A stretch of 64,000 nucleotides of DNA. It comes from Sulfurovum sp. XGS-02 (lineage in GTDB: Bacteria > Campylobacterota > Campylobacteria > Campylobacterales > Sulfurovaceae). The DNA is taken from positions 1,488,001 to 1,552,000 of the forward strand of contig NZ_CP093312.1 in NCBI RefSeq assembly GCF_023213175.1. The letters are read 5' to 3'. Shown here piece after piece: positions 42,251 through 56,796 of this stretch; position 1 is the stretch's first letter, and each line of letters starts with the position of its first letter. The translations under genes were made by a program, and so were the position numbers. Under the pieces are notes generated by a model, which saw only the letters and a program-made list of their open reading frames with translations, did no database searches and was not told the DNA's origin.

Positions 42251-43531
42251 TTAGATCATGCCGCCTGCTTTCAAACCCCAAGTGGTTCTCCATCTTGTCT
42301 TCACAAGTGAGATACCTGCGATCGCAATAAGAACCACTGCCGAAAATATCATAAATCCTGCGGTATACCCGTCAAAAGCACCTTTCGACCACCCTAGGGT
42401 CTTGATCAGTGCCGTACCGCCAAGACCACCGGCTGCACCGATGATACCTGTCATAATACCGATATCTTTACCAAACCTTTGCGGGACCAGCTGAAAGACT
42501 GCACCATTGGCCATACCCAAATTCGCCATAATAAGGAAAAGCACCACGATGGCTAACCCGAACGGTAATGAGATCGTAGCATTCACTACAGCCAGTGTTG
42601 CAACCGTACCAAAGAAGATATAGAGAGATTTTACACCACCCATTTTATCTGCAACAGCACCGCCTACAGGTCGAAGTACTGCACCGGCAAAAATACACAG
42701 TGCGCCAAAATAACCTGCAACGACTTTCACATTGCCTTCATCCAGGATATCAAGTCCAAATGCACTCATATCTACTTGATAGGTGTTCATCAAATAGACT
42801 TTCATATACCCTGCAAAACCTACAAACCCGCCAAAACTTACTGCATAGAAAAGGTTAAACCACCACGTATCTTTATCTTTAAGAAGTTTTCCATAATCAG
42901 AGAGCTTTTTAGGTCTGGCTTTATAGACAGATTCCGGTGCATCTTTAGCCAAAAATGCATATGCTATCCATACTACAATAGCCATGATGGCACCCACTAG
43001 AAATACAGATTCCCAACCCCATTTTTCTGCGATCTTAGGTGCAAATAAAAAGTCAATGACCACACCGATGTTACCTGCTCCGGCAAGACCAAGTACAACG
43101 CCTTGTAACTTAGGTGGATACCACTGACCTGCCTGAGGAAGCGCCACAGCAAACGATGCCCCTGCAAAACCAAGTCCAAGCGCTACAATAAGCAAGGCAT
43201 TGTAAGTAATGGTCTCACCCATAAAATATGCCATAAGCAGTGCTGCGATCACTACAGACTGTGCCATGAGTGCTGTCAGTTTTGCTCCGAGTTTATCTAC
43301 ACCAAAACCAAGTAAAATTCTTAACAATGCACCAGACAAAATAGGGAGTGAAAGTAACGTAGCTTTTTCACCTGCTGTTATCATATAACCTGTAGCTGCC
43401 AGTGCCTCACTTATTTCTGTCGAAAGTGGGCCTAGCATGGTCCAAACCATAAAACTCATATCAAAATATAAAAAAGCCATGAACAATGTCGGTGTATGTC
43501 CCTGTCCTTTCAATGCCTTAAATCCTGCCAT
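42251..43531 (-). CDS. nasA: Nitrate/nitrite MFS transporter (NarK/NasA type)
   Basis: 426 residues from the ATG at 43531 (MAGFKALKGQGHTPTLFMAF), which has AAGGAGA upstream. About 12 membrane helices. NNP-family features are visible: LGFGVDKLGAKL in the loop after helix 2, the nitrate-signature-like GLAGAGNIGVVIDF and the second-half GIIGAAGGLGGTAL. It should import nitrate (and/or exchange nitrite). Its promoter region carries a perfect TGATTA-N5-TAATCA palindrome (43599-43615) with a -10-like TATACT 31 bp further, in common with the other nitrogen genes. Confidence 0.92.
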   Translation of the reverse strand: MAGFKALKGQGHTPTLFMAFLYFDMSFMVWTMLGPLSTEISEALAATGYMITAGEKATLLSLPILSGALLRILLGFGVDKLGAKLTALMAQSVVIAALLMAYFMGETITYNALLIVALGLGFAGASFAVALPQAGQWYPPKLQGVVLGLAGAGNIGVVIDFLFAPKIAEKWGWESVFLVGAIMAIVVWIAYAFLAKDAPESVYKARPKKLSDYGKLLKDKDTWWFNLFYAVSFGGFVGFAGYMKVYLMNTYQVDMSAFGLDILDEGNVKVVAGYFGALCIFAGAVLRPVGGAVADKMGGVKSLYIFFGTVATLAVVNATISLPFGLAIVVLFLIMANLGMANGAVFQLVPQRFGKDIGIMTGIIGAAGGLGGTALIKTLGWSKGAFDGYTAGFMIFSAVVLIAIAGISLVKTRWRTTWGLKAGGMI

Positions 43532-43561
43532 TTTTTTCTCCTTAAGATAAATGTTCCGTGA

Positions 43562-43567
43562 AGTATA
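43562..43567 (-). promoter_or_regulatory. -10-like hexamer TATACT of the nitrate transporter promoter
   Basis: TATACT on the minus strand (rc of 43562-43567), about 31 nt before the ATG. There is no recognisable -35 at 15-19 bp; instead the palindrome at 43599-43615 ends 31 bp upstream. This suits an activator-dependent sigma70-type promoter. Confidence 0.45.
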
Positions 43568-43598
43568 CAATGATAAAAAGACAATATTAATGGGTACA

Positions 43599-43615
43599 TG
43601 ATTAATTTTTAATCA
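43599..43615. promoter_or_regulatory. Nitrogen-regulon palindrome, copy 1 (before nasA)
   Basis: TGATTAATTTTTAATCA: perfect inverted repeat TGATTA-N5-TAATCA. It is one of four perfect copies in the window, all before nitrogen genes. Its near edge is 31 bp from TATACT. Confidence 0.7.
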
Positions 43616-43674: not shown

Positions 43675-43691
43675 TGATTAAAATATAATCA
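43675..43691. promoter_or_regulatory. Nitrogen-regulon palindrome, copy 2 (before cysG)
   Basis: TGATTAAAATATAATCA, the same TGATTA-N5-TAATCA with different spacer bases, flanked by a further T/A pair. The near edge lies 32 bp from TATAAT at 43724-43729, which is about 32 nt before the cysG ATG. No -35 is visible. Confidence 0.7.
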
Positions 43692-43760: not shown

Positions 43761-45023
43761 ATGAAAGAGAGACGAACTTTACCCATATTATTGAAAGAAC
43801 AGCATATTCTTTTGATCGGCGGTGGGAATGTTGCATTACAAAAAGCAGAAGTATTGGCAGAGAACCATATCTCTTTTTCTGTGATATCCAAAGAGGTACA
43901 TCCCAAGATAAAAATATTGTGTGCTGAGATACAGATCAAAAAGTTCAAAACAAAAGACATTCAAAACGAACTCATCGTGATAGATGCAACTGGAAATGAA
44001 AAAGTCACAAAAAAACTTTTGAAATACAAACAGAAACACCCTCTTTTGCTCAACGTGGTGGATCAGCCTAAGGTCTGTGATTTCTACTTTATGGCATTGA
44101 CAAAAAATGCACCTCTGCAGATCGCAGTGTCAAGTTCCGGTGCAAGTCCAACAGTGGCCAAATATTTCAGAGACAAATGTCAGGCATTTATGCCTGAGGA
44201 TATGGAAACATTTTTAGAATCGCTGCAGGCACAGAGGAACAAAGGTATTATTGAGATAGATAAAACGCTTGAAAAGATCGAACAAATGACAGCAAAAGCG
44301 TATCTGGTAGGATGTGGCCTAGGAGACCCTGAACTGCTTACGATCAAAGCCTATAACATTATCAAAGAGGTGGATGTCGTTCTCTATGACCACCTCATCA
44401 GTGATGAGATCATGAATATCGTACCAGAGCATACAAAAAAGGTCTTTGTGGGTAAAGAAAAAGGATTTCATACCAAACCTCAAGAAGAGATCAATAAACT
44501 CATACGCAAATATATCAAAAAAGGCTACTCTGTTGCACGACTGAAAAGCGGTGATCCCTTTATCTTTGGCCGTGGTGCCGAAGAGTTGCTCTACCTTTCA
44601 CAAAAAGGGATCAACACGGAAGTGATACCGGGTATCTCTTCGGCAGTATCAGGACCCCTGATGGGAAATATCCCTGTCACGGCAAGGGATTACAGTAATG
44701 CCTTTACCGTAGTCACCGCCCATTTAAAAGGAAATTCCATCAATCTTGACTGGATACCGATGCTGAAAAACAGAGATCATACGGTCATTGTACTGATGGG
44801 ACTTACACGGATCAAAGAGATCGTACAGCAGGCTAAATCATTAAACATAGAGATAGACACGCCTTGTGCCATCGTCTCCAATGCAAGCCGAAAAAACCAG
44901 ACTGTACTCACCACTACACTCGAGAACCTTGAAGAGGTTTCTCTAGGGGCGTCAAGACCATCTATTTTGGTCTTTGGAGATGTCATACACTATACAAACA
45001 GATTGAAAGAGAGTCAAAAATGA
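43761..45023 (+). CDS. cysG: Siroheme synthase CysG (precorrin-2 dehydrogenase + uroporphyrinogen-III C-methyltransferase)
   Basis: 420 residues. Residues about 1-165 are the NAD-dependent dehydrogenase/ferrochelatase part (LLIGGGNVALQKAEVL, VSSSGASPTVAKYFRDK). Residues about 178-415 are the SUMT methyltransferase (AYLVGCGLGDPELLTIKAY, VLYDHLIS, RLKSGDPFIFGRGAEE, EVIPGISSAVSGP, VTAHLKGN). It converts uroporphyrinogen III to siroheme, the cofactor of the nitrite reductase encoded next; the genes overlap by 4 bp (ATGA). It is the first gene of the nitrate-reduction operon. Confidence 0.94.
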   Translation: MKERRTLPILLKEQHILLIGGGNVALQKAEVLAENHISFSVISKEVHPKIKILCAEIQIKKFKTKDIQNELIVIDATGNEKVTKKLLKYKQKHPLLLNVVDQPKVCDFYFMALTKNAPLQIAVSSSGASPTVAKYFRDKCQAFMPEDMETFLESLQAQRNKGIIEIDKTLEKIEQMTAKAYLVGCGLGDPELLTIKAYNIIKEVDVVLYDHLISDEIMNIVPEHTKKVFVGKEKGFHTKPQEEINKLIRKYIKKGYSVARLKSGDPFIFGRGAEELLYLSQKGINTEVIPGISSAVSGPLMGNIPVTARDYSNAFTVVTAHLKGNSINLDWIPMLKNRDHTVIVLMGLTRIKEIVQQAKSLNIEIDTPCAIVSNASRKNQTVLTTTLENLEEVSLGASRPSILVFGDVIHYTNRLKESQK

Positions 45024-46939
45024 GCATTCTAGAAAAAGCCTCAAAGGCAAGAAATACCAAAGTCAACAAAGTAGAGACGACCAAAGCACTGAAGATGCCG
45101 ATGGATGTCTATAGTAAGCTCGAAGAGATCGCTGCAGCCGGGTATGAAGGTCTGGCCAAAGAAGACAGTGCCTATTTTTTAAAATGTTTTGGGCTCTTTG
45201 ACAAAGGTGAAGACTTTATGCTTCGTGTGCGTGTACCTGCAGGACAATTGAACTACGAACAGGCTTTGCGTATAGGTGAAGTGGCACAAAAGTATGGGAA
45301 TGATTATATCGATCTGACGACACGCATGCAGGTCGAACTGCGCTATTTACAGATAGCAGACATTGCCAAAGTACTACAGGAACTCAAAGAGGTCGGTATC
45401 TCTACTTTTCAGACCGGTGTGGACAACCCGCGTAACATCGTGACAGATCCGCTTGATGGCATCGCTTACGATAACATCATAGAGACAAATCCCATCATTA
45501 ATGAACTCCAAGCGATCTTCGGAGAAGATCCCGAATGGATCTCTGTATTGCCTCGTAAATTCAATACAGGTATACTGGGATCCCTTTCCAACTCCTGTAA
45601 CATCTTTGGACATGACTGTTGTTTTGTCTTAGCACAAAAAGACGGGGTATTTGGATTTAACATCTATTTAGGTGCCCGGGTAGGTGTGCAGGCACAAGAT
45701 GCAGATCTTTTTGTGAAGATAGATGAAGTGGGTCTTTTTTATAAATCTCTTCTAACTGTGTTTAAAACCTACGGATACCGAGACAACCGTAACAAAAACC
45801 GCTTGGTTTTTCTTATCAATGATGTCGGTATAGAAAACTTTGTCAAGGCTATTAAAGAAGAGTCTAATGCCCAGTTTGCCCCTGCAGGTACCACTATGGT
45901 ACAGTCTCAAAATATTGCACTGGGATCCAATAAAGTATTAGGACGCAACGGTAAATATAATCACAAGATCATCGTACCATCCGGTATATTTAGCGGTACA
46001 GACATGATAACTGCTGCACAAGCGGCAAAAGCGTATGGCTCAGGAGATATAAGACTGACCTATGACCAGAACCTCTATATCATCAACGTTGACAAAACAG
46101 ACCTGGAGGCACTAGAATCTGCAGATATCATCAAGACGTATGAAAAATTTAACAACCTCTACTTCAATGACATGATAGCCTGTGCAGGAACACAGACATG
46201 CAGTTTCGGGGTGATTCCCAACAAACCTGATGCCATAGAGATGGCACACTATCTCAATTCTGAAATACCTATAGAGAATGCAACGGTACGTATGAACTGG
46301 TCTGCCTGTCCTAAAGGGTGTGGCGTGCATGGTATCGCTGATATAGGATTTGAAGGATGTAAAGCCAAAGACGATGCAGGGAACCGTGTGGATGGTGTAC
46401 ATATTTTCGTCGGTGGGAAGATCACCCGTGTAGCAAAAGAAGCACATACTTTACATAAAGCCCTACCCTTGACGGAGGCTAAATATCATGTGAAATATCT
46501 GCTTAAGACCTATGCAGCGTTTAAACAAAGAGGTGAAACCTATGAAGCCTTTGATGACAGATTTTTATCGGCGAACTACTCTTTTCAAGCCCTTGGATTT
46601 TACACAAAGATAAACTATATCCTCAATGAAAAACTGGGATTGGATCTTTGGTTTGAACTTGAGAATGCACCCAAAACATTTAAAAAAGAGGAGTTTGAAA
46701 TTTTTACGTTTGGATTGAAGCTCTTTAAACTGCTTACCGGTGAAAAACGTTATGAATCGGTAGAAAACTTTGAACCTGTGCTGACCAAACCTAGAAACAT
46801 TACAAGAGATGAAGTCACGAAACTCAATCCGAAAGTCCCTCCAAAGCTTTCAGAAGTCATCTACAATATGACCCATCAGGAGAAAAGAGAACGGGCACAG
46901 GTATTCTCTGAACTGATCGTGGCACTTAAAGAGGTATAA
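45020..46939 (+). CDS. nirA: Siroheme nitrite reductase (NirA type) with a kinase-C-lobe-like tail
   Basis: 639 residues; typical NirA enzymes have 500-560. Two ferredoxin-like half-domains lead to the [4Fe-4S]-siroheme ligands C388-x5-C394 (ACAGTQTC) and C430-x3-C434 (ACPKGCG). It reduces nitrite to ammonium with six electrons, presumably from ferredoxin. The last 80 residues (560-639, encoded at 46697-46939) read EIFTFGLKLFKLLTGEKRYE, then KLNPKVPPKLSEVIYNM and a final SELIVAL. This is the pattern of protein-kinase subdomains IX-XI and resembles residues 431-503 of the kinase at 40471-42114. Nitrite rather than sulfite is inferred from context. Confidence 0.92.
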   Translation: MSILEKASKARNTKVNKVETTKALKMPMDVYSKLEEIAAAGYEGLAKEDSAYFLKCFGLFDKGEDFMLRVRVPAGQLNYEQALRIGEVAQKYGNDYIDLTTRMQVELRYLQIADIAKVLQELKEVGISTFQTGVDNPRNIVTDPLDGIAYDNIIETNPIINELQAIFGEDPEWISVLPRKFNTGILGSLSNSCNIFGHDCCFVLAQKDGVFGFNIYLGARVGVQAQDADLFVKIDEVGLFYKSLLTVFKTYGYRDNRNKNRLVFLINDVGIENFVKAIKEESNAQFAPAGTTMVQSQNIALGSNKVLGRNGKYNHKIIVPSGIFSGTDMITAAQAAKAYGSGDIRLTYDQNLYIINVDKTDLEALESADIIKTYEKFNNLYFNDMIACAGTQTCSFGVIPNKPDAIEMAHYLNSEIPIENATVRMNWSACPKGCGVHGIADIGFEGCKAKDDAGNRVDGVHIFVGGKITRVAKEAHTLHKALPLTEAKYHVKYLLKTYAAFKQRGETYEAFDDRFLSANYSFQALGFYTKINYILNEKLGLDLWFELENAPKTFKKEEFEIFTFGLKLFKLLTGEKRYESVENFEPVLTKPRNITRDEVTKLNPKVPPKLSEVIYNMTHQEKRERAQVFSELIVALKEV

Positions 46940-48544
46940 ATGGTCGAAGCACTCAGTAAGCATACCCCGTTAGAGAATTTCATCGAGCATAAAACCAATA
47001 CCGGTATGCAGTGTGGTAACTACAGTATCGACTTGCCCGAACTTGGTGATGGTGAACAGTTCCGTTTTCACTTTGATGCCACTGCCTGTGTGGGTTGTCA
47101 CTGCTGTGAAGTCGCCTGTAATGAACAAAATGCAAACCCCGATGAGATCAAATGGAGAAGGGTCGGAGAGCTGGAGATGGGTGCATTCCCTGATACGCTT
47201 CAGCTTTTTAACTCTATGAGCTGTAATCACTGTATAGAACCCGAATGTCTCATAGGCTGTCCTACAAACTCATACATCAAATTTGACAATGGTATCGTAT
47301 GGCATGATGATCCTTCATGCATTGGATGTCAATACTGTACTTGGAACTGCCCCTACGAAGTACCTACGTTCAATGCAGACCGGGGTATCGTCACCAAGTG
47401 TCATATGTGTGCCGATAAACTTGAAGCAGGCCAGAGTCCTGCCTGTGTACAGGCCTGCCCGAGTAATGCGATAGAGATCGAAACTTTCAGTGTCCAACAG
47501 TGGCTTGAAGAGGATATGAAAAAAGAAGGTGTCGCCCCTCACCTGCCGGATATAGAGATCACTAAACCTACGACACGTTATACCTTGCCAGAGCTCCAAG
47601 AGGGAGAAGCGTTGCGCATTGCAGATGAGCATTTGCTCAAACCTGCACATCCTGAACTCCCACTGGTTTTCATGACCGTACTGACACAAACAAGTCTGGG
47701 TGCATTTTTGGCACTCTTTTTGGGAGAGTTACTCTTTTCACTTGGCTTTAACTTGCCCAAACCTACGTTTGCTATGGCTCTGCTAGCCTTTTTGCCTTCT
47801 GCAATCGGTTTACCGCTTTCTGCACTCCATTTAGGCAGACCGGGTATGGCACTTATGGCAATGAAGAACTGGAGAACGTCGTGGCTTTCCCGTGAGGCCA
47901 TAGCCCTGGGTGCCTTTACAGGATTGGCTGCACTTGTGGCGATATGCTACTTTTTCAATGTCACTGGTTTAGGACTGCTTCTCCTTGAGGCCCTTACCCT
48001 TGCCACTGGAATCTACGGTATCTATGCACAATCAATGATCTACCGTATCAAAGCGCGTCCAAGCTGGAACAGAAAAAGTACCACCAAACGCTTTTTTGGT
48101 TCAGGCTACATAGGTTTTTTACTCATTGCCACAGCCCTGCTCATAGCGAATGGTACACAAGGTGTGATGGTTTTACTCTCTATCACCCTACTTGCAGGTA
48201 TGGGACAGGCATTGGCCATACTCGAAGAGGTCATGTTCTATCGACACTTAGACAAAGAAGACCCGCTCTACTACCAGTATAACAGAAGCCGTATACTGCT
48301 TCAAGAACATTTCGGTACAGTAAAGAAGTTTAGGATTTTCTCATTGTCACTCTTTGCATTAGGTTTGCCCCTCTTGGCTATTTTATTTACCGCAAGCGGC
48401 CTAATACATTTGGCAATTCCCACACTCATCGTCTCAACACTCGGTGCATTGACCAGTGAATTAGCAGGGAGATATCTCTTCTACAGAACAGTGGTGCCTT
48501 TAGGTTTGGCAGGAAATTTCTTTGCCGGTAACCAGAGACACTAG
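46940..48544 (+). CDS. DmsB-DmsC-like fusion: four-cluster ferredoxin joined to a quinol-oxidising membrane anchor
   Basis: 534 residues. Residues about 45-185 contain four cysteine groups typical of DmsB/NrfC ferredoxins (CVGCHCCEVACNEQN, CNHCIEPECLIGCP, CIGCQYCTWNCPYE, CHMCADKL and ACVQACPSNA). From about residue 235 eight hydrophobic segments follow with the DmsC-like features TSLGAFLALFLGELL, LHLGRPGMALMAMKNWRTSWLSREA. In DMSO-reductase-type enzymes these are separate B and C subunits. Here, placed between nirA and the nitrate reductase gene, the fusion would carry electrons from quinol to a cytoplasmic molybdoenzyme. No signal peptide. It begins right after the nirA stop. Confidence 0.88.
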   Translation: MVEALSKHTPLENFIEHKTNTGMQCGNYSIDLPELGDGEQFRFHFDATACVGCHCCEVACNEQNANPDEIKWRRVGELEMGAFPDTLQLFNSMSCNHCIEPECLIGCPTNSYIKFDNGIVWHDDPSCIGCQYCTWNCPYEVPTFNADRGIVTKCHMCADKLEAGQSPACVQACPSNAIEIETFSVQQWLEEDMKKEGVAPHLPDIEITKPTTRYTLPELQEGEALRIADEHLLKPAHPELPLVFMTVLTQTSLGAFLALFLGELLFSLGFNLPKPTFAMALLAFLPSAIGLPLSALHLGRPGMALMAMKNWRTSWLSREAIALGAFTGLAALVAICYFFNVTGLGLLLLEALTLATGIYGIYAQSMIYRIKARPSWNRKSTTKRFFGSGYIGFLLIATALLIANGTQGVMVLLSITLLAGMGQALAILEEVMFYRHLDKEDPLYYQYNRSRILLQEHFGTVKKFRIFSLSLFALGLPLLAILFTASGLIHLAIPTLIVSTLGALTSELAGRYLFYRTVVPLGLAGNFFAGNQRH

Positions 48545-48557
48545 AAAGGAATATACA

Positions 48558-50873
48558 ATGAGTATCATACAAAAAATAAAAGACTTTTTAGGTACAGATA
48601 TCAAAGAGGATAAATATGCCTTGTTCGATGATCCTATCTTTGGTAAAGTCGCCAAAAGCAAAGCACCCGATAAATGGGTCCGTTCAACCTGTGGATACTG
48701 CGGTGTAGGATGTGGTATGTATATCGGTGTAAAAAACGGTAAAGCCGTTTACTCCAAAGGGGATCCGCTGCATCCTGTCAATATGGGTACTCTGTGTCCC
48801 AAAGGTCTCAGTGAACACCAAATGGTCGAAGCCGACTCTCGTGTACGCTCTCCTCTGATCAGAAAAAACGGAGTGCTTACATCCGCTACATGGGAAGAGA
48901 CGTTTCAGACAACCTCTGATGCGTTCAAGCGTATACAAGCAGAACACGGGAAAGGTGCTGTTGCTGTCATCTCCACCGGGCAATTACTGACAGAAGAGTT
49001 CTATTCTTTAGGTAAATTTGTTCAACTCGGACTTGAAACTAATAACTACGATGGAAATACCACACTTTGTATGGCTTCTGCCGTCATGGGGTACAAACAA
49101 ACTTTTGGTTCTGATGGCCCGACCGGCTGTTATGAAGATTTTGAAAAAGCAGATGTTATACTGCTTATTGGCGCGAATATTGCAGACAATCATCCCATCT
49201 TAAAACTTCATATTGCAAAAAATGAATCTGTCACCGGAAAAAAACCGACTATCATTGTTGTAGACCCCCGTAAGTCCAAAACATCACAAATGGCCGATAT
49301 CTTTGTCCCTCTGGCTCCACGAAGTGATCTGGCACTGATCAATGGTCTATGTTACATTATTATGGAACAGGGTTGGGAAGATGAAAAATTCATCATGGAA
49401 CGTACGAACGGATATAAAGCCTTTAAAAAACATATACTGGCAAACTACCCTCCTCAGGAAGTTTCCCAGATCACAGGTATCGAGGTGAAAGAACTCTATA
49501 ACTTGGCAAAAGTTTACGCCACTGCGGACAAAGTAATGAGCGCATGGACCATGGGTGTGAATCAAAGCAGTATAGGTACAGACACCGTATCTGCTATCTG
49601 TAATCTTGCTTTGATTACAGGGAACCTTGGTCGTGAAGGTGCTGCACCTATGTCTATCACAGGTCAATGTAATGCGATGGGTACAAGAGAATTCGGTTTT
49701 ACCTCTTCCATCCCCGGATACAGAAATTATGCAAGCCAAAGTGACAGACAAAACTTTGCAGAGATCATCAATGTCCCTGAGGAGCTCATACCTACAGCAA
49801 GAGGTTATGCTTATCCTCAAATCATAGATGCGATCAATCGCGGTGAAATAAAAGCTTTATGGGTAGTAGCAACCAATCCTTTAGTCTCTTACCCTGACCA
49901 GAATGCTTTACGTTCAGCACTGAAGAAACTTGATATTCTTGTCGTTCAAGATGCCTTTTTGTCAGATACGGCCCAAATTGCGGATGTGGTTTTTGCTGCA
50001 GCCACCTGGAGTGAAAAAGAGGGTTGTTATACCAACTCTGAAAGACGTTGTAACTATGCTAAAAAAGCGGTAGAACCTCTAGGTGAAAGTAGAGCCGATC
50101 TTGACATAGTCAAAGAGTTTTCAAAATACTTTGAAGGCAAATACGATCTTCTTTTTAAAGATCTTCATACCCCTAGAGATGTCTTCAATGAGATTAAAAA
50201 AGTGAGCAAAGGCCAACTGTGTGACTACAGCGGTATGGACTACGAGCGTATCGAAGCGCTGGGTGGTATACAATGGCCTTGCAACGAAAATGCACCCGAT
50301 GGTACCAAGCGTCTATATTCTGAGGAGATGGCGTGTAATACATCGGACGGAAAAGCAAACCTCCTGGCTGTAGACTGGGAACCACTCTCTGAAACAGCAG
50401 GTGAAGGTTTACCTTTCATGCTCAACACAGGAAGAACCGTTGAACAGTTCCATACCAGAACAAAAACAGGAACTGTAGGTATACTCGATGCTCTTGCCCC
50501 GGAAGCATGGGTAGAGTTAAGTCCAAAAGATGCAGCTAAGCTCCAAGTACACATCGGTGACCGTATAGCACTCTCAGGTAGACGTGGTCGAGTTGAAGAT
50601 GTCATCGTAAAAGTAAGTGAAACAGTCAGAGAAGGTCATGTCTTTGTCCCTTTTCATTTCAACGAACAGCTCATCAACAAGGTCACCATCCCTGAGTTTG
50701 ACGCCAAGTCCTTTGAACCCAATTATAAACAATGTGCGGTTCAACTGCATTCAAAAGCAGTACCTGAGGGGATCGCCTATGAAGCTCCAGAGATAACGGG
50801 TTACCTGGAAAGCGTTAAGGTCGACAAGGAGGAGGTATTCAGTGAAGAAAAGGTTGAAAGTACTAAGAAGTAA
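48558..50873 (+). CDS. nasC: Assimilatory nitrate reductase catalytic subunit (molybdopterin)
   Basis: 771 residues from the ATG at 48558 (MSIIQKIKDFLGTDIKEDKY) with AAAGGAA upstream. The N-terminal [4Fe-4S] site is C45-x2-C48-x3-C52 plus C80 (CGYCGVGCGM, GTLCPKG). Mo-bis-MGD motifs follow: NNYDGNTTLCMASAVMGYK, IANIADNHP-like LLIGANIADNHPILKL, VVDPRKSKTSQMAD, and the C-terminal dinucleotide-binding HTRTKTG. No Tat signal, so it is cytoplasmic as expected of Nas/NarB. No C-terminal [2Fe-2S] domain is present. The 3' end overlaps the convergent DUF234 gene by 11 bp. Formate dehydrogenase is the main alternative; the nir/nas context disfavours it. Confidence 0.88.
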   Translation: MSIIQKIKDFLGTDIKEDKYALFDDPIFGKVAKSKAPDKWVRSTCGYCGVGCGMYIGVKNGKAVYSKGDPLHPVNMGTLCPKGLSEHQMVEADSRVRSPLIRKNGVLTSATWEETFQTTSDAFKRIQAEHGKGAVAVISTGQLLTEEFYSLGKFVQLGLETNNYDGNTTLCMASAVMGYKQTFGSDGPTGCYEDFEKADVILLIGANIADNHPILKLHIAKNESVTGKKPTIIVVDPRKSKTSQMADIFVPLAPRSDLALINGLCYIIMEQGWEDEKFIMERTNGYKAFKKHILANYPPQEVSQITGIEVKELYNLAKVYATADKVMSAWTMGVNQSSIGTDTVSAICNLALITGNLGREGAAPMSITGQCNAMGTREFGFTSSIPGYRNYASQSDRQNFAEIINVPEELIPTARGYAYPQIIDAINRGEIKALWVVATNPLVSYPDQNALRSALKKLDILVVQDAFLSDTAQIADVVFAAATWSEKEGCYTNSERRCNYAKKAVEPLGESRADLDIVKEFSKYFEGKYDLLFKDLHTPRDVFNEIKKVSKGQLCDYSGMDYERIEALGGIQWPCNENAPDGTKRLYSEEMACNTSDGKANLLAVDWEPLSETAGEGLPFMLNTGRTVEQFHTRTKTGTVGILDALAPEAWVELSPKDAAKLQVHIGDRIALSGRRGRVEDVIVKVSETVREGHVFVPFHFNEQLINKVTIPEFDAKSFEPNYKQCAVQLHSKAVPEGIAYEAPEITGYLESVKVDKEEVFSEEKVESTKK

Positions 50874-51714
50874 GTGCTTTCAGATCATTCAGATCAAATA
50901 AAAGCAGGTCATCATCCTGTGTTTGTAACAGCTCATTTGAAAAGCCGCTTTTGGAAAACAGTGCATAGACATCCACGTTTATACCTGACTCTGCTGCTTT
51001 GGCTTTAAGCTTGGTGAGTTCGTTCTTACAGACTTTTCGGTCTTTGTATTTGCACTCTCCCAAGATGACCTTTTTATCTTGACTTACTGCTAAAATGTCA
51101 AATTCACTGTGAATGTTCCAAAAACTTCCACTATCCACTATACTATTATGCGCTGCATAATGCTGGATTAAAAGTGCATCACAAAGCTGTTCATAGACCA
51201 AAGAACGTAAACGCTCATAATGTTTTTCAAAGTTCTTTAAAAAGGCATTCCCTTTCCCTAAAGCCAGATCTTTTTTATAATAGGTCACAAAACCGAACCA
51301 GAAACGCATGAATGGCTGTACAAAACGGAGTTTATCCTGTACACGGTAGGAGCGTTGCTCTTTTTTGAGTTTGTGTTTGGGATGGTTGCGCAATGGAGAT
51401 TCTCTTGAAGCTTCGACTCTCAGCACATTTAAGTCTACCAGTTCCTGGACTATCTTCTCTCCCAGAGCCTCACTTACTTTTGCCTTTCTAAGTACGGAGT
51501 AAAGTTTTCCGTCCCCTCTGGCTACTGCCATGAGAATTTCACGATACGGACTTTCCAAAAGATATGAGGGCGAGACAAGTGCTTGAAATTTTGAGAAATT
51601 TTGCACAAAATTTGACTCAACCATAGAAAAGACATCATCAAAATAGTCCAATTCTATATCTTTGCCGATACCGCCCAAAATAGAGAAATACTCAACAGCC
51701 TGTTCTAGTTCCAA
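50863..51714 (-). CDS. DUF234-domain protein (stand-alone C-terminal part of archaeal-type ATPases)
   Basis: 283 residues from a TTG at 51714. The body has a winged-helix segment (EILMAVARGDGKLYSVLRKA), the YRVQDKLRFVQPFMRFWFGF box typical of DUF234, and a PD-(D/E)xK-like core EFDILAVSQDKKVILGECKYK. The P-loop ATPase that normally precedes DUF234 is missing. The frame remains open 24 codons upstream, to a TAA at 51787-51789, with plausible protein (YEQRDFIKASFQRFYRHFSY) but no ATG or GTG, so the true start or intactness is in doubt. It is convergent with the nitrate reductase gene and unrelated to it by function. Confidence 0.72.
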   Translation of the reverse strand: MELEQAVEYFSILGGIGKDIELDYFDDVFSMVESNFVQNFSKFQALVSPSYLLESPYREILMAVARGDGKLYSVLRKAKVSEALGEKIVQELVDLNVLRVEASRESPLRNHPKHKLKKEQRSYRVQDKLRFVQPFMRFWFGFVTYYKKDLALGKGNAFLKNFEKHYERLRSLVYEQLCDALLIQHYAAHNSIVDSGSFWNIHSEFDILAVSQDKKVILGECKYKDRKVCKNELTKLKAKAAESGINVDVYALFSKSGFSNELLQTQDDDLLLFDLNDLKALTS

Positions 51715-51821: not shown

Positions 51822-51838
51822 TGATTAATTATTAAACA
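51822..51838. promoter_or_regulatory. Nitrogen-regulon palindrome, imperfect copy at the NtrC-like gene
   Basis: TGATTAATTATTAAACA matches TGATTA-N5-TAATCA with one mismatch (TAAACA). It ends 14 bp before the ATG of the NtrC-like gene, i.e. downstream of the -10, a repressor-type position. Confidence 0.5.
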
Positions 51839-51852
51839 CCCCAAAGAGTATT

Positions 51853-52587
51853 ATGGAAACATTTTTTAGCAAATCAGATAAAATACAACATATCATCAAG
51901 AGTTTTACCCTCACAAAAACACTTTTTGTATCATCGATCATCATCGGTGAAGCACATACAGGTAAGAAGTCACTTGCACGATACCTTTTCCCCGATACAC
52001 CTTTAGTGTCAGGTAGTGATCAAAAAGAAGTGGAAGAGGCACTTGAACACAATGATGAGCTTATCATCACCAACTTTGAAAAGCTCAGTAATCAAAATTC
52101 TCTTGACTTTACCAATAAACGCATTATTGCTACAGCAGATTATATGGGCAACCCAGAGCTCATTGATGACCTTTTTGCTTTTATCTATACCATGCCATCA
52201 CTGCAAGAGCGTCCTGAAGACATCGATTATTTAAAAGAGCTCTTCATTAAAGAGGCATGTTCCACGTTGATGATAGAAGAGGATACATGTGACTCTGAGC
52301 ACATCCCTCTAAATCTTACTAAAAACACTAAAAGTCTCAAAAGGTCAGTCTATATACACATTATGAAACAAAGCATGCATGCGCAAGATATAGAAGAGAT
52401 ACTTTACCACTATTTACTTACACACCTTGACGGTAATGATGCATACAGGGAACACCTAGGCTTATATGAGAGACCTCTTATAGAAGCGGGACTTCATAAG
52501 TTTGGGTCACAGCTGCAACTTTCACAGGTTTTGGGGATCAACAGAAACACACTTAGAAAGAAGATACATGAGCACAACATCGATTGA
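51853..52587 (+). CDS. NtrC-like regulator lacking receiver domain and GAFTGA motif
   Basis: 244 residues, half the length of NtrC. A shortened AAA+ domain is visible: Walker A SIIIGEAHTGKKSLARYLF, a weak Walker B ELIITNFEKLS in place of the usual acidic LDE, sensor-I-like NKRIIATAD, and DDLFAFIYTMPSLQERPEDIDYL, equal to the LPPLRERxEDI region of enhancer-binding proteins. The stretch between Walker A and B that normally holds GAFTGA is only about 25 residues and lacks it. The C-terminus is a clear Fis-type helix-turn-helix: LSQVLGINRNTLRKKIHEH. Without GAFTGA it should not drive sigma54; I infer a sigma70-type regulator of the nitrogen genes. It overlaps the next gene by 20 bp. Confidence 0.8.
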   Translation: METFFSKSDKIQHIIKSFTLTKTLFVSSIIIGEAHTGKKSLARYLFPDTPLVSGSDQKEVEEALEHNDELIITNFEKLSNQNSLDFTNKRIIATADYMGNPELIDDLFAFIYTMPSLQERPEDIDYLKELFIKEACSTLMIEEDTCDSEHIPLNLTKNTKSLKRSVYIHIMKQSMHAQDIEEILYHYLLTHLDGNDAYREHLGLYERPLIEAGLHKFGSQLQLSQVLGINRNTLRKKIHEHNID

Positions 52588-53269
52588 TTTTAAATCTTTT
52601 ATAGAATGGGACAACAATCCTTTCATTCTTTTTAATGATCAGGGAAAAATACTCTACCTCAATAATGCTGCAGAGATTTTATTTGGGTATGTCACTAAAA
52701 AAGAGCTTTATGATATTGCTTTATCTTATGCACCTCAAACTTTTGGTTATAAGACCACCTCACTAGCACTGAATTATGACACCTACAACTTTCATGCTAT
52801 TGCAGTAGGATATGAGAATGAAGAACAGATCTCTTTACGTCTATACAACACTCCGCGTATCAAACCAGCACGTAAAATAGAAAAAGACAAACTCATTACC
52901 ACCGATATTAACATCCTGCTTGAGGCAAATATAGCACTCTTTAGAACAAAAAACGCCAATCCTCTTAAACTTCTAACCGATCAGGATCTACCTCAATTTA
53001 AAATAGACCAAAATAATTTCTCTAAACTCATAAGAAAAACACTCAATGCATTTAGGTCTTCAGACTCCATTGATATCTCTCTGACGCTACTCGTTGGTCA
53101 GCATGTCATAATAGATGATAAAAGAGTATCTATCGCCCAGCTTTCCATACTTGCCAATGGACGTTACGCAGATACAGATGATGAGATATGCAGCCATGCA
53201 GAGACGAGCCAGATCAAATGTGTTCTTAAAGAACACTCGATTAAACTGGAAATACCTCTTATTCAATAA
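52568..53269 (+). CDS. PAS-domain, NtrB-like protein without a recognisable kinase active site
   Basis: 233 residues from ATG 52568 (MSTTSIDFKSFIEWDNNPFI). Residues about 12-95 form a PAS domain of NtrB type (ILFNDQGKILYLNNAAEILFGY). The C-terminal 100 residues (FKIDQNNFSKLIRKTLNAFR, ending CVLKEHSIKLEIPLI) follow the outline of a HATPase domain with an N-box-like helix, but the phospho-acceptor H-box (HExxNP), the N-box asparagines and the G-boxes are absent. I infer a degenerate NtrB that senses something through PAS and acts by binding its coupled NtrC-like partner. It ends 11 bp before the amtB-1 operator. Alternative: an unrelated PAS regulator. Confidence 0.65.
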   Translation: MSTTSIDFKSFIEWDNNPFILFNDQGKILYLNNAAEILFGYVTKKELYDIALSYAPQTFGYKTTSLALNYDTYNFHAIAVGYENEEQISLRLYNTPRIKPARKIEKDKLITTDINILLEANIALFRTKNANPLKLLTDQDLPQFKIDQNNFSKLIRKTLNAFRSSDSIDISLTLLVGQHVIIDDKRVSIAQLSILANGRYADTDDEICSHAETSQIKCVLKEHSIKLEIPLIQ

Positions 53270-53280
53270 GTTAGGCCTAT

Positions 53281-53297
53281 TGATTAAAAATTAATCA
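53281..53297. promoter_or_regulatory. Nitrogen-regulon palindrome, copy 3 (before amtB-1)
   Basis: TGATTAAAAATTAATCA, perfect TGATTA-N5-TAATCA; exactly the reverse complement of copies 1 and 4. Its near edge is 31 bp from TACTAT (53329-53334), the likely -10, which is about 35 nt before the amtB-1 ATG. No -35. Confidence 0.7.
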
Positions 53298-53368
53298 GAA
53301 AGCAAAGATAAAAAATTATCATTCATGTTACTATTGTCTTGTTAAAAATTAATTTAAAAGGAAATAGC

Positions 53369-54676
53369 ATGAAACTAAAACTTTCGGCTCTTATGGCAAT
53401 GTTTTTGCCTATCTTCGCTTTTGCTGAAGATAAACTGGACACAGGTGATACAGCATGGATGATGGTATCAACAGCATTTGTACTTCTTATGACACCAGCA
53501 GGACTGGCACTTTTCTATGGCGGTATGACAAGAGCTAAAAACGTACTCAATACCTATGCAATGGTAATGGGTGCATTTGTAGTAGCCTTTGTAGTATGGA
53601 TCATTGCAGGTTATTCTCTCGCATTTGGAACCAATGAAAGCGCTATGCTTCAAAATGTGTTTGGTGGATTCGGTAATGTGATGCTTGATGGTATTAAGTG
53701 GACTGACCTTTCTGGTTCATACCCTACGTATGTATTTATTGCATTCCAAGGTACGTTTGCTGCTATTACTGTAGCGATCGCTGCAGGTTCTGTGATCGAA
53801 CGTATGAAGTTTTCAACTTGGATGGTAGTTGTGATCCTTTGGGGCCTTCTTGTATATGCTCCTGTGACTCACATGGTATGGGGTGGTGACGGTGCACTTC
53901 TTTTTGATGCCGGTGCACTTGATTTTGCCGGTGGTACAGTTGTACACATGAATGGTGGTTTAGCTGGTCTTGTGCTTGCACTATTGGTTGGTAAGAGAGC
54001 TGGATACCCTAAAGTTGCTATGAAACCATATAGTATCCTTCTTACTGCTGTGGGTGCCGCATTATTATGGTTCGGTTGGTATGGATTTAATGGTGGTTCT
54101 GCATTCGGTGCAAACGCTATCGCTGGTCTTGCTGTCATGACAACAACTGTTGCAACTGCTGCTGCTGCTGTAACTTGGATGCTTCTTGAGTGGTTTGTCT
54201 TTAAAAAACCGACACTTCTTGGAATTGCTTCAGGTATCATTGCCGGTCTTGTTGCGATCACACCTGCCGCTGGTTTTGTAAGCGTTGGTGGAGCATTCAT
54301 CGTAGGTATCGTTGGTTCGATCGTTGCATTCTTCGGTGTTGTAACATTGAAGAAAAAACTTGGTTATGATGATTCTCTTGATGCATTTGGTATCCACTTC
54401 CTAGCAGGTCTATGGGGTGCGCTTGCAACAGGTCTTCTTGCACTTGATGACAAAGATCTACTTTGGGACGGTCCACTTAAAGAGAGCGGTGACAGAATGG
54501 GACAATTCATGGTACAACTTGAATCAGTTGTAGTTGTTGGTCTCTTTACACTTATCGGAACTGTGATCGTTTACTATATCGCTTCAGCAGTCACAGGTGG
54601 TGCAAGAGTAGATGAAGAAACTGAGTCAACTGGTCTTGATGAAACTGTTCACGGTGAAAATGTAGTGAATGCCTAA
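53369..54676 (+). CDS. amtB: Ammonium transporter AmtB, first copy
   Basis: 435 residues from the ATG at 53369 (AAAGGAA upstream). A signal peptide MKLKLSALMAMFLPIFAFA precedes the 11-helix Amt fold, as in many AmtB proteins. Family motifs: DTAWMMVSTAFVLLMTPAGLALFYGGM, the pore histidine regions FAGGTVVHMNGGLAGL and FGIHFLAGLWGALATG, and WFGWYGFNGGS. It conducts ammonium and is gated by GlnK binding; the glnK gene follows 37 bp downstream. Confidence 0.96.
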   Translation: MKLKLSALMAMFLPIFAFAEDKLDTGDTAWMMVSTAFVLLMTPAGLALFYGGMTRAKNVLNTYAMVMGAFVVAFVVWIIAGYSLAFGTNESAMLQNVFGGFGNVMLDGIKWTDLSGSYPTYVFIAFQGTFAAITVAIAAGSVIERMKFSTWMVVVILWGLLVYAPVTHMVWGGDGALLFDAGALDFAGGTVVHMNGGLAGLVLALLVGKRAGYPKVAMKPYSILLTAVGAALLWFGWYGFNGGSAFGANAIAGLAVMTTTVATAAAAVTWMLLEWFVFKKPTLLGIASGIIAGLVAITPAAGFVSVGGAFIVGIVGSIVAFFGVVTLKKKLGYDDSLDAFGIHFLAGLWGALATGLLALDDKDLLWDGPLKESGDRMGQFMVQLESVVVVGLFTLIGTVIVYYIASAVTGGARVDEETESTGLDETVHGENVVNA

Positions 54677-54710: not shown

Positions 54711-55055
<345 letters not shown>

Positions 55056-55134: not shown

Positions 55135-55151
55135 TGATTAATTTTTAATCA
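55135..55151. promoter_or_regulatory. Nitrogen-regulon palindrome, copy 4 (before amtB-2)
   Basis: TGATTAATTTTTAATCA, identical to copy 1. A -10-like TAAACT begins 31 bp beyond its end (55183-55188), the same spacing as at nasA and amtB-1. A second candidate, TATATT (55174-55179), lies closer and would break the spacing rule. Confidence 0.65.
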
Positions 55152-55270: not shown

Positions 55271-56443
55271 ATGGAAATAAATTTCGTCATAGATACCTTC
55301 TTCGCACTCTTCGCCATGACCCTTATCATCTTCATGGTGCCGGGTTTTGCTATGCTTGAAGCGGGATTGGTACGAACAAAGAATGTCACATCAGTACTGA
55401 CTGTAAACGTAATGATCTATGCGGTCGCTTCTCTAGCATTTTTACTGATAGGTTATGAGCTTGCATTTGGAAGCTGGGATCATCAAAACGGTATGAGTAA
55501 ATGGGCATTTTTTATGTTTCAAATGGCATTTGTAGGTAAAGTAGTCAATATCATGAGTGGTGGGGTAAGTGAACGTTCCCGTATCCTGCCTTTGGCTATA
55601 TTCACCATTGTTGTTGGAGCATTGATCTATCCGGTTATTGTAAACCTTACATGGGGAGCAAATTTTTTAGCCGGTACAGCCTTGGATATCTCATCACTTT
55701 CCGATCTTGCAGGATCCACAGTGATACATTCTACGGGAGGTTGGGCACTGCTTGCAGCCATTCTCATCATGGGGCCTAGACGCGGAAGATACAAAGACAA
55801 TATCGTTCGTGTTATCCCCGCATCCAATATCCCTTTGGTCACATTGGGAGCGCTTTTACTTTGGATCGGTTGGTTTGGGTTTAACGGTGGTTCTGTGGGA
55901 GCGATCTCCTCAAAAGAGAATGCTGATGCAGTGGCACTCACTATCATGAACACCAATACAGCGGGTCTTGCAGGTGCTATCGCAGGATGGCTACTGACGT
56001 ACTTTAGATATAAGAAATTCGATATCACGGTCATACTCAACGGTGCACTAGGTGGACTTGTCGCCGTTACAGCCGGACCAGACCAATATGATATCCATAC
56101 CCCTATTCTCATTGGTGCGATCGGTGGGGCCTTGGTTGTCCTCTTTGTACCTATTTTTGATAAATTCAGAATGGATGATCCTGTGGGTGCATTGTCTGTT
56201 CACTTGATCAATGGTATCTGGGGTACACTTGCAGTAGGTATTTTTGTAGCAGATGTAAGCATCTGGACACAATTAAAAGGTATACTTGTTGTAGGTATGA
56301 TTGTTTTTCCACTTTCATGGATTACAATATACATTATTAACAAAGTCTTTGTACTTCGTGCAAATGATGAAGAACAACTTGAGGGAATCGATGCGACAGA
56401 GTGTGGTATAGAGTCATACCCAGAATTTAAACGTAGCATATAA
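55271..56443 (+). CDS. amtB: Ammonium transporter AmtB, second copy
   Basis: 390 residues, shorter than copy one and without a cleavable signal peptide (MEINFVIDTFFALFAMTLII begins with the first helix). Motifs FMVPGFAMLEAGLVRTKN, LAGSTVIHSTGGWALL, WIGWFGFNGGS and LSVHLINGIWGTLAVG define an Amt channel, with the pore histidines H in STVIHSTGG and SVHLING. The two AmtB copies are divergent in sequence, unlike their GlnK partners. The start has AAGGAA upstream; glnK-2 follows by 11 bp. It may serve a different affinity range or a sensor role. Confidence 0.95.
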   Translation: MEINFVIDTFFALFAMTLIIFMVPGFAMLEAGLVRTKNVTSVLTVNVMIYAVASLAFLLIGYELAFGSWDHQNGMSKWAFFMFQMAFVGKVVNIMSGGVSERSRILPLAIFTIVVGALIYPVIVNLTWGANFLAGTALDISSLSDLAGSTVIHSTGGWALLAAILIMGPRRGRYKDNIVRVIPASNIPLVTLGALLLWIGWFGFNGGSVGAISSKENADAVALTIMNTNTAGLAGAIAGWLLTYFRYKKFDITVILNGALGGLVAVTAGPDQYDIHTPILIGAIGGALVVLFVPIFDKFRMDDPVGALSVHLINGIWGTLAVGIFVADVSIWTQLKGILVVGMIVFPLSWITIYIINKVFVLRANDEEQLEGIDATECGIESYPEFKRSI

Positions 56444-56451
56444 GGAGATAA

Positions 56452-56796
<345 letters not shown>

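Follow-up and report, generated by a model that had tools for sequence, protein, structure and literature searches.

Degenerate descendants of NtrC and NtrB as a candidate phosphorylation-free, sigma70-dependent nitrogen switch in Sulfurovum and other Campylobacterales

In the 64,000-nucleotide stretch of Sulfurovum sp. XGS-02 DNA analyzed here (the window, positions 1488001-1552000 of a 2.19-Mb genome on a single contig), two overlapping genes, here named A and B, very probably encode a sigma70-type nitrogen regulator, acting as activator of its targets and as autorepressor, and its partner. We consider it probable that the two proteins together form a nitrogen-status switch, with A as the activator and B relaying the state of PII to it by direct contact. 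A and B look like the main nitrogen-starvation switch in most free-living relatives of Campylobacter, with a DNA signature, apparently read by them, that can be traced group-wide. A preliminary description of the window had delimited the 244-residue reading frame and the partner overlapping it by 20 bp, and both frames stand (Table 1). It had also placed the pair between the nas operon and amtB; the flanking clusters are as described, but a divergently oriented DUF234 gene intervenes between nasA and A. The DUF234 gene adjoins A in most relatives of Sulfurovum (genera g1, g4, g5, and g6 of family f1).

Table 1. Features of the A/B locus and its predicted targets, in window coordinates
Feature	Position	Strand	Basis or remark
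NarK-like MFS transporter	42251..43570	-	Pfam MFS_1; predicted target
Palindrome TGATTAATTTTTAATCA	43599..43615	.	between the NarK-like MFS gene and the nas operon
Second palindrome TGATTAAAATATAATCA	43675..43691	.	nas/narK intergenic region
nas operon	43761..50873	+	sirohaem synthase, nitrite/sulphite reductase, Fe-S/DmsC protein, molybdopterin nitrate reductase; predicted target
DUF234 gene	50863..51714	-	separates nasA from A; divergent from A
Palindrome TGATTAATTATTAAACA	51822..51838	.	A's own promoter, just after candidate -10 TATTAT; operator position
Gene A	51853..52587	+	ATG start, 244 aa; NtrC-derived, degenerate AAA+ core and Fis-type HTH
Walker A of A, residues 32-38 (GEAHTGK)	51946..51966	+	alignment of 74 homologues
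Lost Walker B site of A, residues 70-76 (LIITNFE)	52060..52080	+	alignment of 74 homologues
Fis-type HTH of A, residues 206-240	52468..52572	+	Pfam HTH_8, Fis alignment, conservation
Gene B	52568..53269	+	best ATG 52568, 233 aa; NtrB-derived, PAS and degenerate HATPase-type domain, without His (DHp) domain
PAS domain of B, about residues 8-95	52589..52852	+	weak Pfam/NCBIfam matches; hhalign to NtrB PAS
Degenerate HATPase (CA) domain of B, about residues 108-233	52889..53266	+	hhalign; VIA-align 1r62
Palindrome TGATTAAAAATTAATCA	53281..53297	.	upstream of amtB-glnK
Candidate sigma70 extended -10 TGTTACTAT of amtB	53326..53334	+	-10 at 53329..53334; 40 bp from palindrome centre
amtB ammonium transporter	53369..54676	+	predicted target
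glnK (PII)	54714..55055	+	PII family in genome, PII adjoins amt in related loci; predicted target and proposed signal for B
Palindrome TGATTAATTTTTAATCA	55135..55151	.	upstream of amt2-glnK2
Second amt	55271..56443	+	predicted target
Second glnK (PII)	56455..56796	+	

Judged by its sequence, A is a descendant of the NtrC family that retains the Fis-type helix-turn-helix (HTH) and has lost the receiver, Walker B, and the GAFTGA loop together with its sigma54 partner. Single-sequence searches of Pfam and NCBIfam returned HTH_8 (E 9e-6), the ntrC HTH (8e-10), and the bEBP stretch 'PPLxERxED' but no match to a receiver domain, and A starts at the AAA+ core. When a profile of 48 homologues was compared with known structures, it matched the NtrC family (E about 1e-12), in the P-loop, 'PPLxERxED', and sensor II regions. 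In an alignment of 74 homologues, the Walker A residues G, G, and K are kept in 73, 74, and 71 sequences, respectively, but the D-E acid pair of Walker B is not conserved, and the aligned columns hold mainly T/E/S/Y and N/D. About 36 residues separate Walker A from the former Walker B site, which is too short for a GAFTGA loop. Five residues of the recognition helix (N230, R231, T233, L234, and K237) are invariant in the 74 homologues and align with N84, R85, T87, L88, and K91 of Fis. AlphaFold, supplied with 12 to 14 close homologues each of A and B, gave a low-confidence model of A (pLDDT 61.5). Foldseek searches with the models yielded no match below E 0.001 for either protein, and further structure comparison of the A model returned generic AAA+/P-loop proteins. 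Profile searches and alignment thus agree with the earlier reading of A as an NtrC-like HTH joined to a trimmed AAA+ core with a decayed Walker B and neither receiver nor GAFTGA.

By similar comparisons, B is a descendant of NtrB that has kept the PAS domain but lost the DHp domain with its H-box and the nucleotide boxes. Alignment of B to NtrB with hhalign paired two regions, the PAS stretch (P 1e-5) and the first part of the HATPase (CA) domain (P 2e-4), the latter including the NtrB hairpin 'hGeRYrl', and skipped NtrB residues 47-196; this jump from residue 46 to 197 indicates that the His domain is absent from B. The NCBIfam NR(II) model was matched by 10 of 46 B homologues. The PAS part is well conserved among the homologues, no column of the 72-homologue alignment holds a conserved histidine, and the N, G1, F, and G2 boxes are absent from the aligned CA-like domain. 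Searching PDB sequences with the profile of B yielded marginal matches only, e.g., ZraS (E 0.5). The AlphaFold model of B is also of low confidence (pLDDT 59.4); VIA-align with its C-terminal half ranked the NtrB CA domain 1r62 first (Z 7.8, 92 residues, 3.4 Å), followed by CA domains of other histidine kinases. A Z score below 8 is by itself no proof of a CA-like fold, but it agrees with the sequence evidence. The NtrB-type PAS domain and the outline of a HATPase without H-box or nucleotide boxes, described earlier for this protein, are therefore borne out by hhalign, the NR(II) matches, conservation, and the structure match, and profile searches detected neither an intact HATPase nor a receiver in the pair.

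A survey of 200 Campylobacterales genomes identified A in 148 and B in 145, nearly always in single copy. Both genes were present in 143 genomes, B alone in two, and A alone in five, mostly incomplete assemblies (Fisher P about 1e-38). They are adjacent in families f1, f6, f14, f15, and f17, convergent or close in genus g23 of f18, and distant from each other in f4, f5, f9, f16, f20, f21, and part of f18. The reversal of the usual kinase/regulator order noted earlier is correct for the window, where A precedes B; in many other genomes the two genes are unlinked. Where the two are unlinked, A sits after tolB-pal, flanked by slyD and fabD (e.g., locus L085, 7227-9431), and B directly 3' of rpoD in almost every locus read; family f8 again has B mostly after rpoD, but A is found near amt-glnK. 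Co-retention of A and B despite their being unlinked argues for a joint function, and the pair is a conserved system, not a product of decay. PII was detected in 145 of the 148 A-positive but in only 24 of the 52 A-negative genomes, and PII-amt genes adjoin A or B in members of f1, f6, f8, f11, f15, f17, and f18. Co-occurrence of the pair with PII, Amt, and nas genes, as the earlier interpretation requires, is strong. Two observations count against the switch model: three A-positive genomes lack a PII match, and in many genomes neither gene is near nitrogen genes, B being placed after rpoD and A in the slyD-fabD interval. The position of B immediately downstream of rpoD (sigma70) recurs in about nine families, even with A elsewhere (L101, 8166-10710; L099-L117).

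Co-occurrence, synteny, and homology point to the relay of PII status by contact, analogous to NifL acting on NifA, as the best candidate mechanism for B. As an obligate partner of A, B would most likely use its CA-like domain to bind GlnK/PII in the unmodified state, in the manner of NtrB and NifL, and its PII-bound state would then inhibit or release A by direct contact. The CA domain is where PII binds NtrB. The host genome encodes a GlnD homologue, which makes a PII modification cycle plausible. The GHKL domain of NifL takes up GlnK in its unmodified form, binds nucleotide without hydrolyzing it, and inhibits NifA through direct contact (PMC9866876, PMC3466315). A tenable but clearly less probable alternative is that A and B do form a nitrogen switch in which B senses a different signal, either a small molecule or redox state through its PAS domain or ADP or 2-oxoglutarate directly, with PII acting on the ammonium channels only. 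The conservation of the PAS part is in keeping with this, as is the redox sensing through FAD by one NifL PAS domain (PMC3466315). However, the presence of PII tracks A and B, PII-amt genes adjoin them in several families, and the CA domain of NifL, homologous to that of B, is the docking place of PII (PMC3466315, PMC9866876).

A 17-bp palindrome, TGATTAAWWWTTAATCA, is a Fis-type site and marks nas/narK, amtB-glnK, amt2-glnK, glnA, and A itself. A Crp/Fnr-type site was considered for it and rejected because such sites have a different spacing. The presence of shared palindromes beside A and B, already part of the preliminary description, held up on counting: TGATTAANNNTTAATCA is present at window positions 43599, 43675, 51822, 53281, and 55135, i.e., five times versus 1.1 expected, and genome-wide 23 palindromes with at most two mismatches compare with four for the reversed pattern used as the control. 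Searched with a W centre and at most one mismatch, the palindrome was counted 294 times in A-positive genomes (control, 29), a tenfold excess, and 30 times in A-negative genomes (control, 17), which is close to background. At PII/amt loci, it was detected with at most two mismatches in 26 of 34 cases in genomes where A is unlinked, compared to none of six in A-negative genomes. Both A and B are missing from f10, f13, f23, and genus g13 of f8; in the latter genus and in members of f23, amt-glnK or glnK is retained but has no palindrome, so that other control must act there. Fis sites consist of a 15-bp AT-rich core bounded by G/C at positions +/-7, contacted by Arg85, with T favored at +/-8 (PMC4784862). 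The palindrome matches this geometry and is thus the kind of site expected for a Fis-type HTH such as that of A.

RpoN was not detected in the host genome or in four other genomes of its genus, and a search for NtrC in the host genome found no full-length NtrBC, intact NtrC, or sigma54 activator core elsewhere, so an intact NtrBC system as an alternative was rejected. Together with the domain losses and the co-occurrence, this lends good support to the earlier proposal of a nitrogen switch that works with sigma70 and without phosphotransfer. Of 67 target promoters, 44 have their best -10 box beginning 38 to 44 bp from the palindrome centre (mean 8 and maximum 18 in shuffled sequences); related promoters that are not independent contribute to this count, and the same spacing is seen in several families and at several target genes. 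In A promoters, the palindrome is 23 to 34 bp away from the start codon, upstream of it, and either touches the -10 box or comes after it, which places it on the core promoter. From a palindrome fixed about 40 bp before the -10 box at the targets but placed on the core promoter at A, we infer activation of the former and autorepression of the latter. A dimer of A would bind the palindrome, whose centre would be some 52 bp upstream of the transcription start, by its Fis-type HTH and activate the sigma70 promoters of amtB-glnK, amt2-glnK, nas/narK, glnA, and ABC uptake genes, and it would repress its own operon from the site on the core promoter. That A is instead a pure repressor, or an architectural Fis-like protein, appears unlikely: the operator-like site at its own promoter, the DNA bending by Fis-type HTHs, and the missing catalytic core for classical activation would suit such a role, but the sites at amt, glnK, nas, and narK stand clear of the -10 box, at a fixed 40 bp before it, as for a sigma70 activator.

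That the palindrome is read by A itself is most strongly indicated by the shift of the site alongside the recognition helix of A. The helix is changed in f8, f11, genus g23 of f18, and G041, a genome of the window's own family, mostly to NRITLRKK but also to NRATLTSK, NRVTLRK, or NRTTLRK. The amt, glnK, and A promoters of these genomes mostly carry TGTATAnnnnnTATACA at the same position, with the outer TG...CA kept. Among genomes with known A helices, those with NRNTLRK contain TGATTAA 120 times (control, 9) and TGTATA 74 times (control, 61; no real excess), and the NRITLRK group has the opposite pattern, with TGATTAA four times (control, 2) and TGTATA 36 times (control, 19). Helix class and site class do not correspond one to one: f15 genomes with the helix NRVTLTK retain the TGATTAA site, and G118 (RNTLRK) has no clean site but a hybrid palindrome, TGATTAAATATTATACA, half of each class, before a PII gene (L182, 1392-1408). 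The paired change of helix and site in several lineages represents a natural experiment on Fis-type DNA recognition. It also makes it improbable that another regulator co-occurring with A and B reads the palindrome while the pair does something else, since the palindrome, in addition, has exact Fis-type geometry, stands at the promoter of A, and is absent from the amt promoters of A-negative genomes.

The lack of a receiver, a His domain, and catalytic acids in A and B implies that the pair performs no phosphotransfer and probably no ATP hydrolysis, and the retained Walker A of A may still bind ATP or ADP. Many receiver-containing proteins are encoded in the genome, but a conventional phosphorelay persisting through another kinase or a hidden receiver is very improbable, given that A has no receiver and B has neither a His domain nor a conserved His. 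Functionless decay of an NtrBC remnant, suggested by the loss of catalytic motifs in both proteins, was rejected as having next to no probability, contradicted by open frames kept in about three quarters of the 200 genomes, invariant DNA-contact residues, and strict co-occurrence.

The proposed switch resembles NifL-NifA-GlnK of Azotobacter vinelandii in that a bEBP-type regulator would be under contact control by a PAS and GHKL protein receiving PII/GlnK. The strict co-occurrence of A and B is compatible with contact of this kind, which in NifL-NifA is modulated by GlnK and ADP. NifL, however, keeps the H domain and the ATP boxes, and NifA keeps a GAF domain and an AAA+ core working with sigma54, whereas A and B are shorter and devoid of catalytic parts, the genome has no sigma54, and the predicted targets are general nitrogen uptake genes. 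With NtrB-NtrC (GlnL-GlnG), A and B share the sequence ancestry of both proteins, ammonium, nitrate, and glutamine synthetase genes as predicted targets, PII as the likely input, palindromic sites for a Fis-type HTH, and, presumably, negative autoregulation; they differ in lacking receiver, His domain, GAFTGA, Walker B, and sigma54, and in their reversed or unlinked genes. NtrC proteins without GAFTGA that use sigma70 occur in Rhodobacter capsulatus and in Caulobacter, in the latter at nitrogen genes (PMC10274813). Unlike A, both still possess the receiver and are responsive to its phosphorylation by a functional NtrB, and Caulobacter NtrC still requires ATP binding and hydrolysis. The nucleoid protein Fis has a comparable HTH, with the recognition helix N-R-x-T-L-R-K-K and a site with a 15-bp AT-rich core, G/C at +/-7, and T/A at +/-8, but in contrast to Fis, A looks gene-specific and is fused to the remnant of an AAA+ core, and its near-perfect sites are few in each genome.

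Searches of open-access papers on Sulfurovum, Sulfurimonas, Arcobacter, or Sulfurospirillum yielded no earlier description of such a regulator. On balance, we lean toward a shared master nitrogen regulator of free-living Campylobacterota, in which a complete ancestral NtrB-NtrC pair would have turned into a phosphorylation-free, sigma54-free contact switch controlled by PII, its DNA specificity shifting repeatedly together with the promoter sites. If this is true, the ecologically important sulfur oxidizers of hydrothermal vents and sediments gain a master regulator of nitrogen whose regulon and binding site are predicted, and a textbook two-component system can drop phosphotransfer and sigma54 yet retain its biological job.

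The best sites of the host genome precede nas/narK (two sites), amtB, amt2, A, glnA, a urea-type ABC transporter, a nitrate-type ABC permease, and three porin-like genes. Weaker palindromes were located upstream of a second NarK gene and in the interval separating NrtA from NasC. Sites at 559209, 369822, and 1806069, as well as the intragenic sites at 1062985 and 2061461, look like chance occurrences and were set aside. In the porin-like genes (610804-612012, 612316-613506, and 1701448-1702695), two of which were searched and gave no Pfam match, the palindrome lies 27 to 73 bp upstream; they possibly encode nitrogen-regulated outer membrane channels. A 187-residue protein (1567569-1568132, minus strand) without a Pfam or NCBIfam match has a palindrome 127 bp upstream of its gene, which is located beside an argG-like gene.
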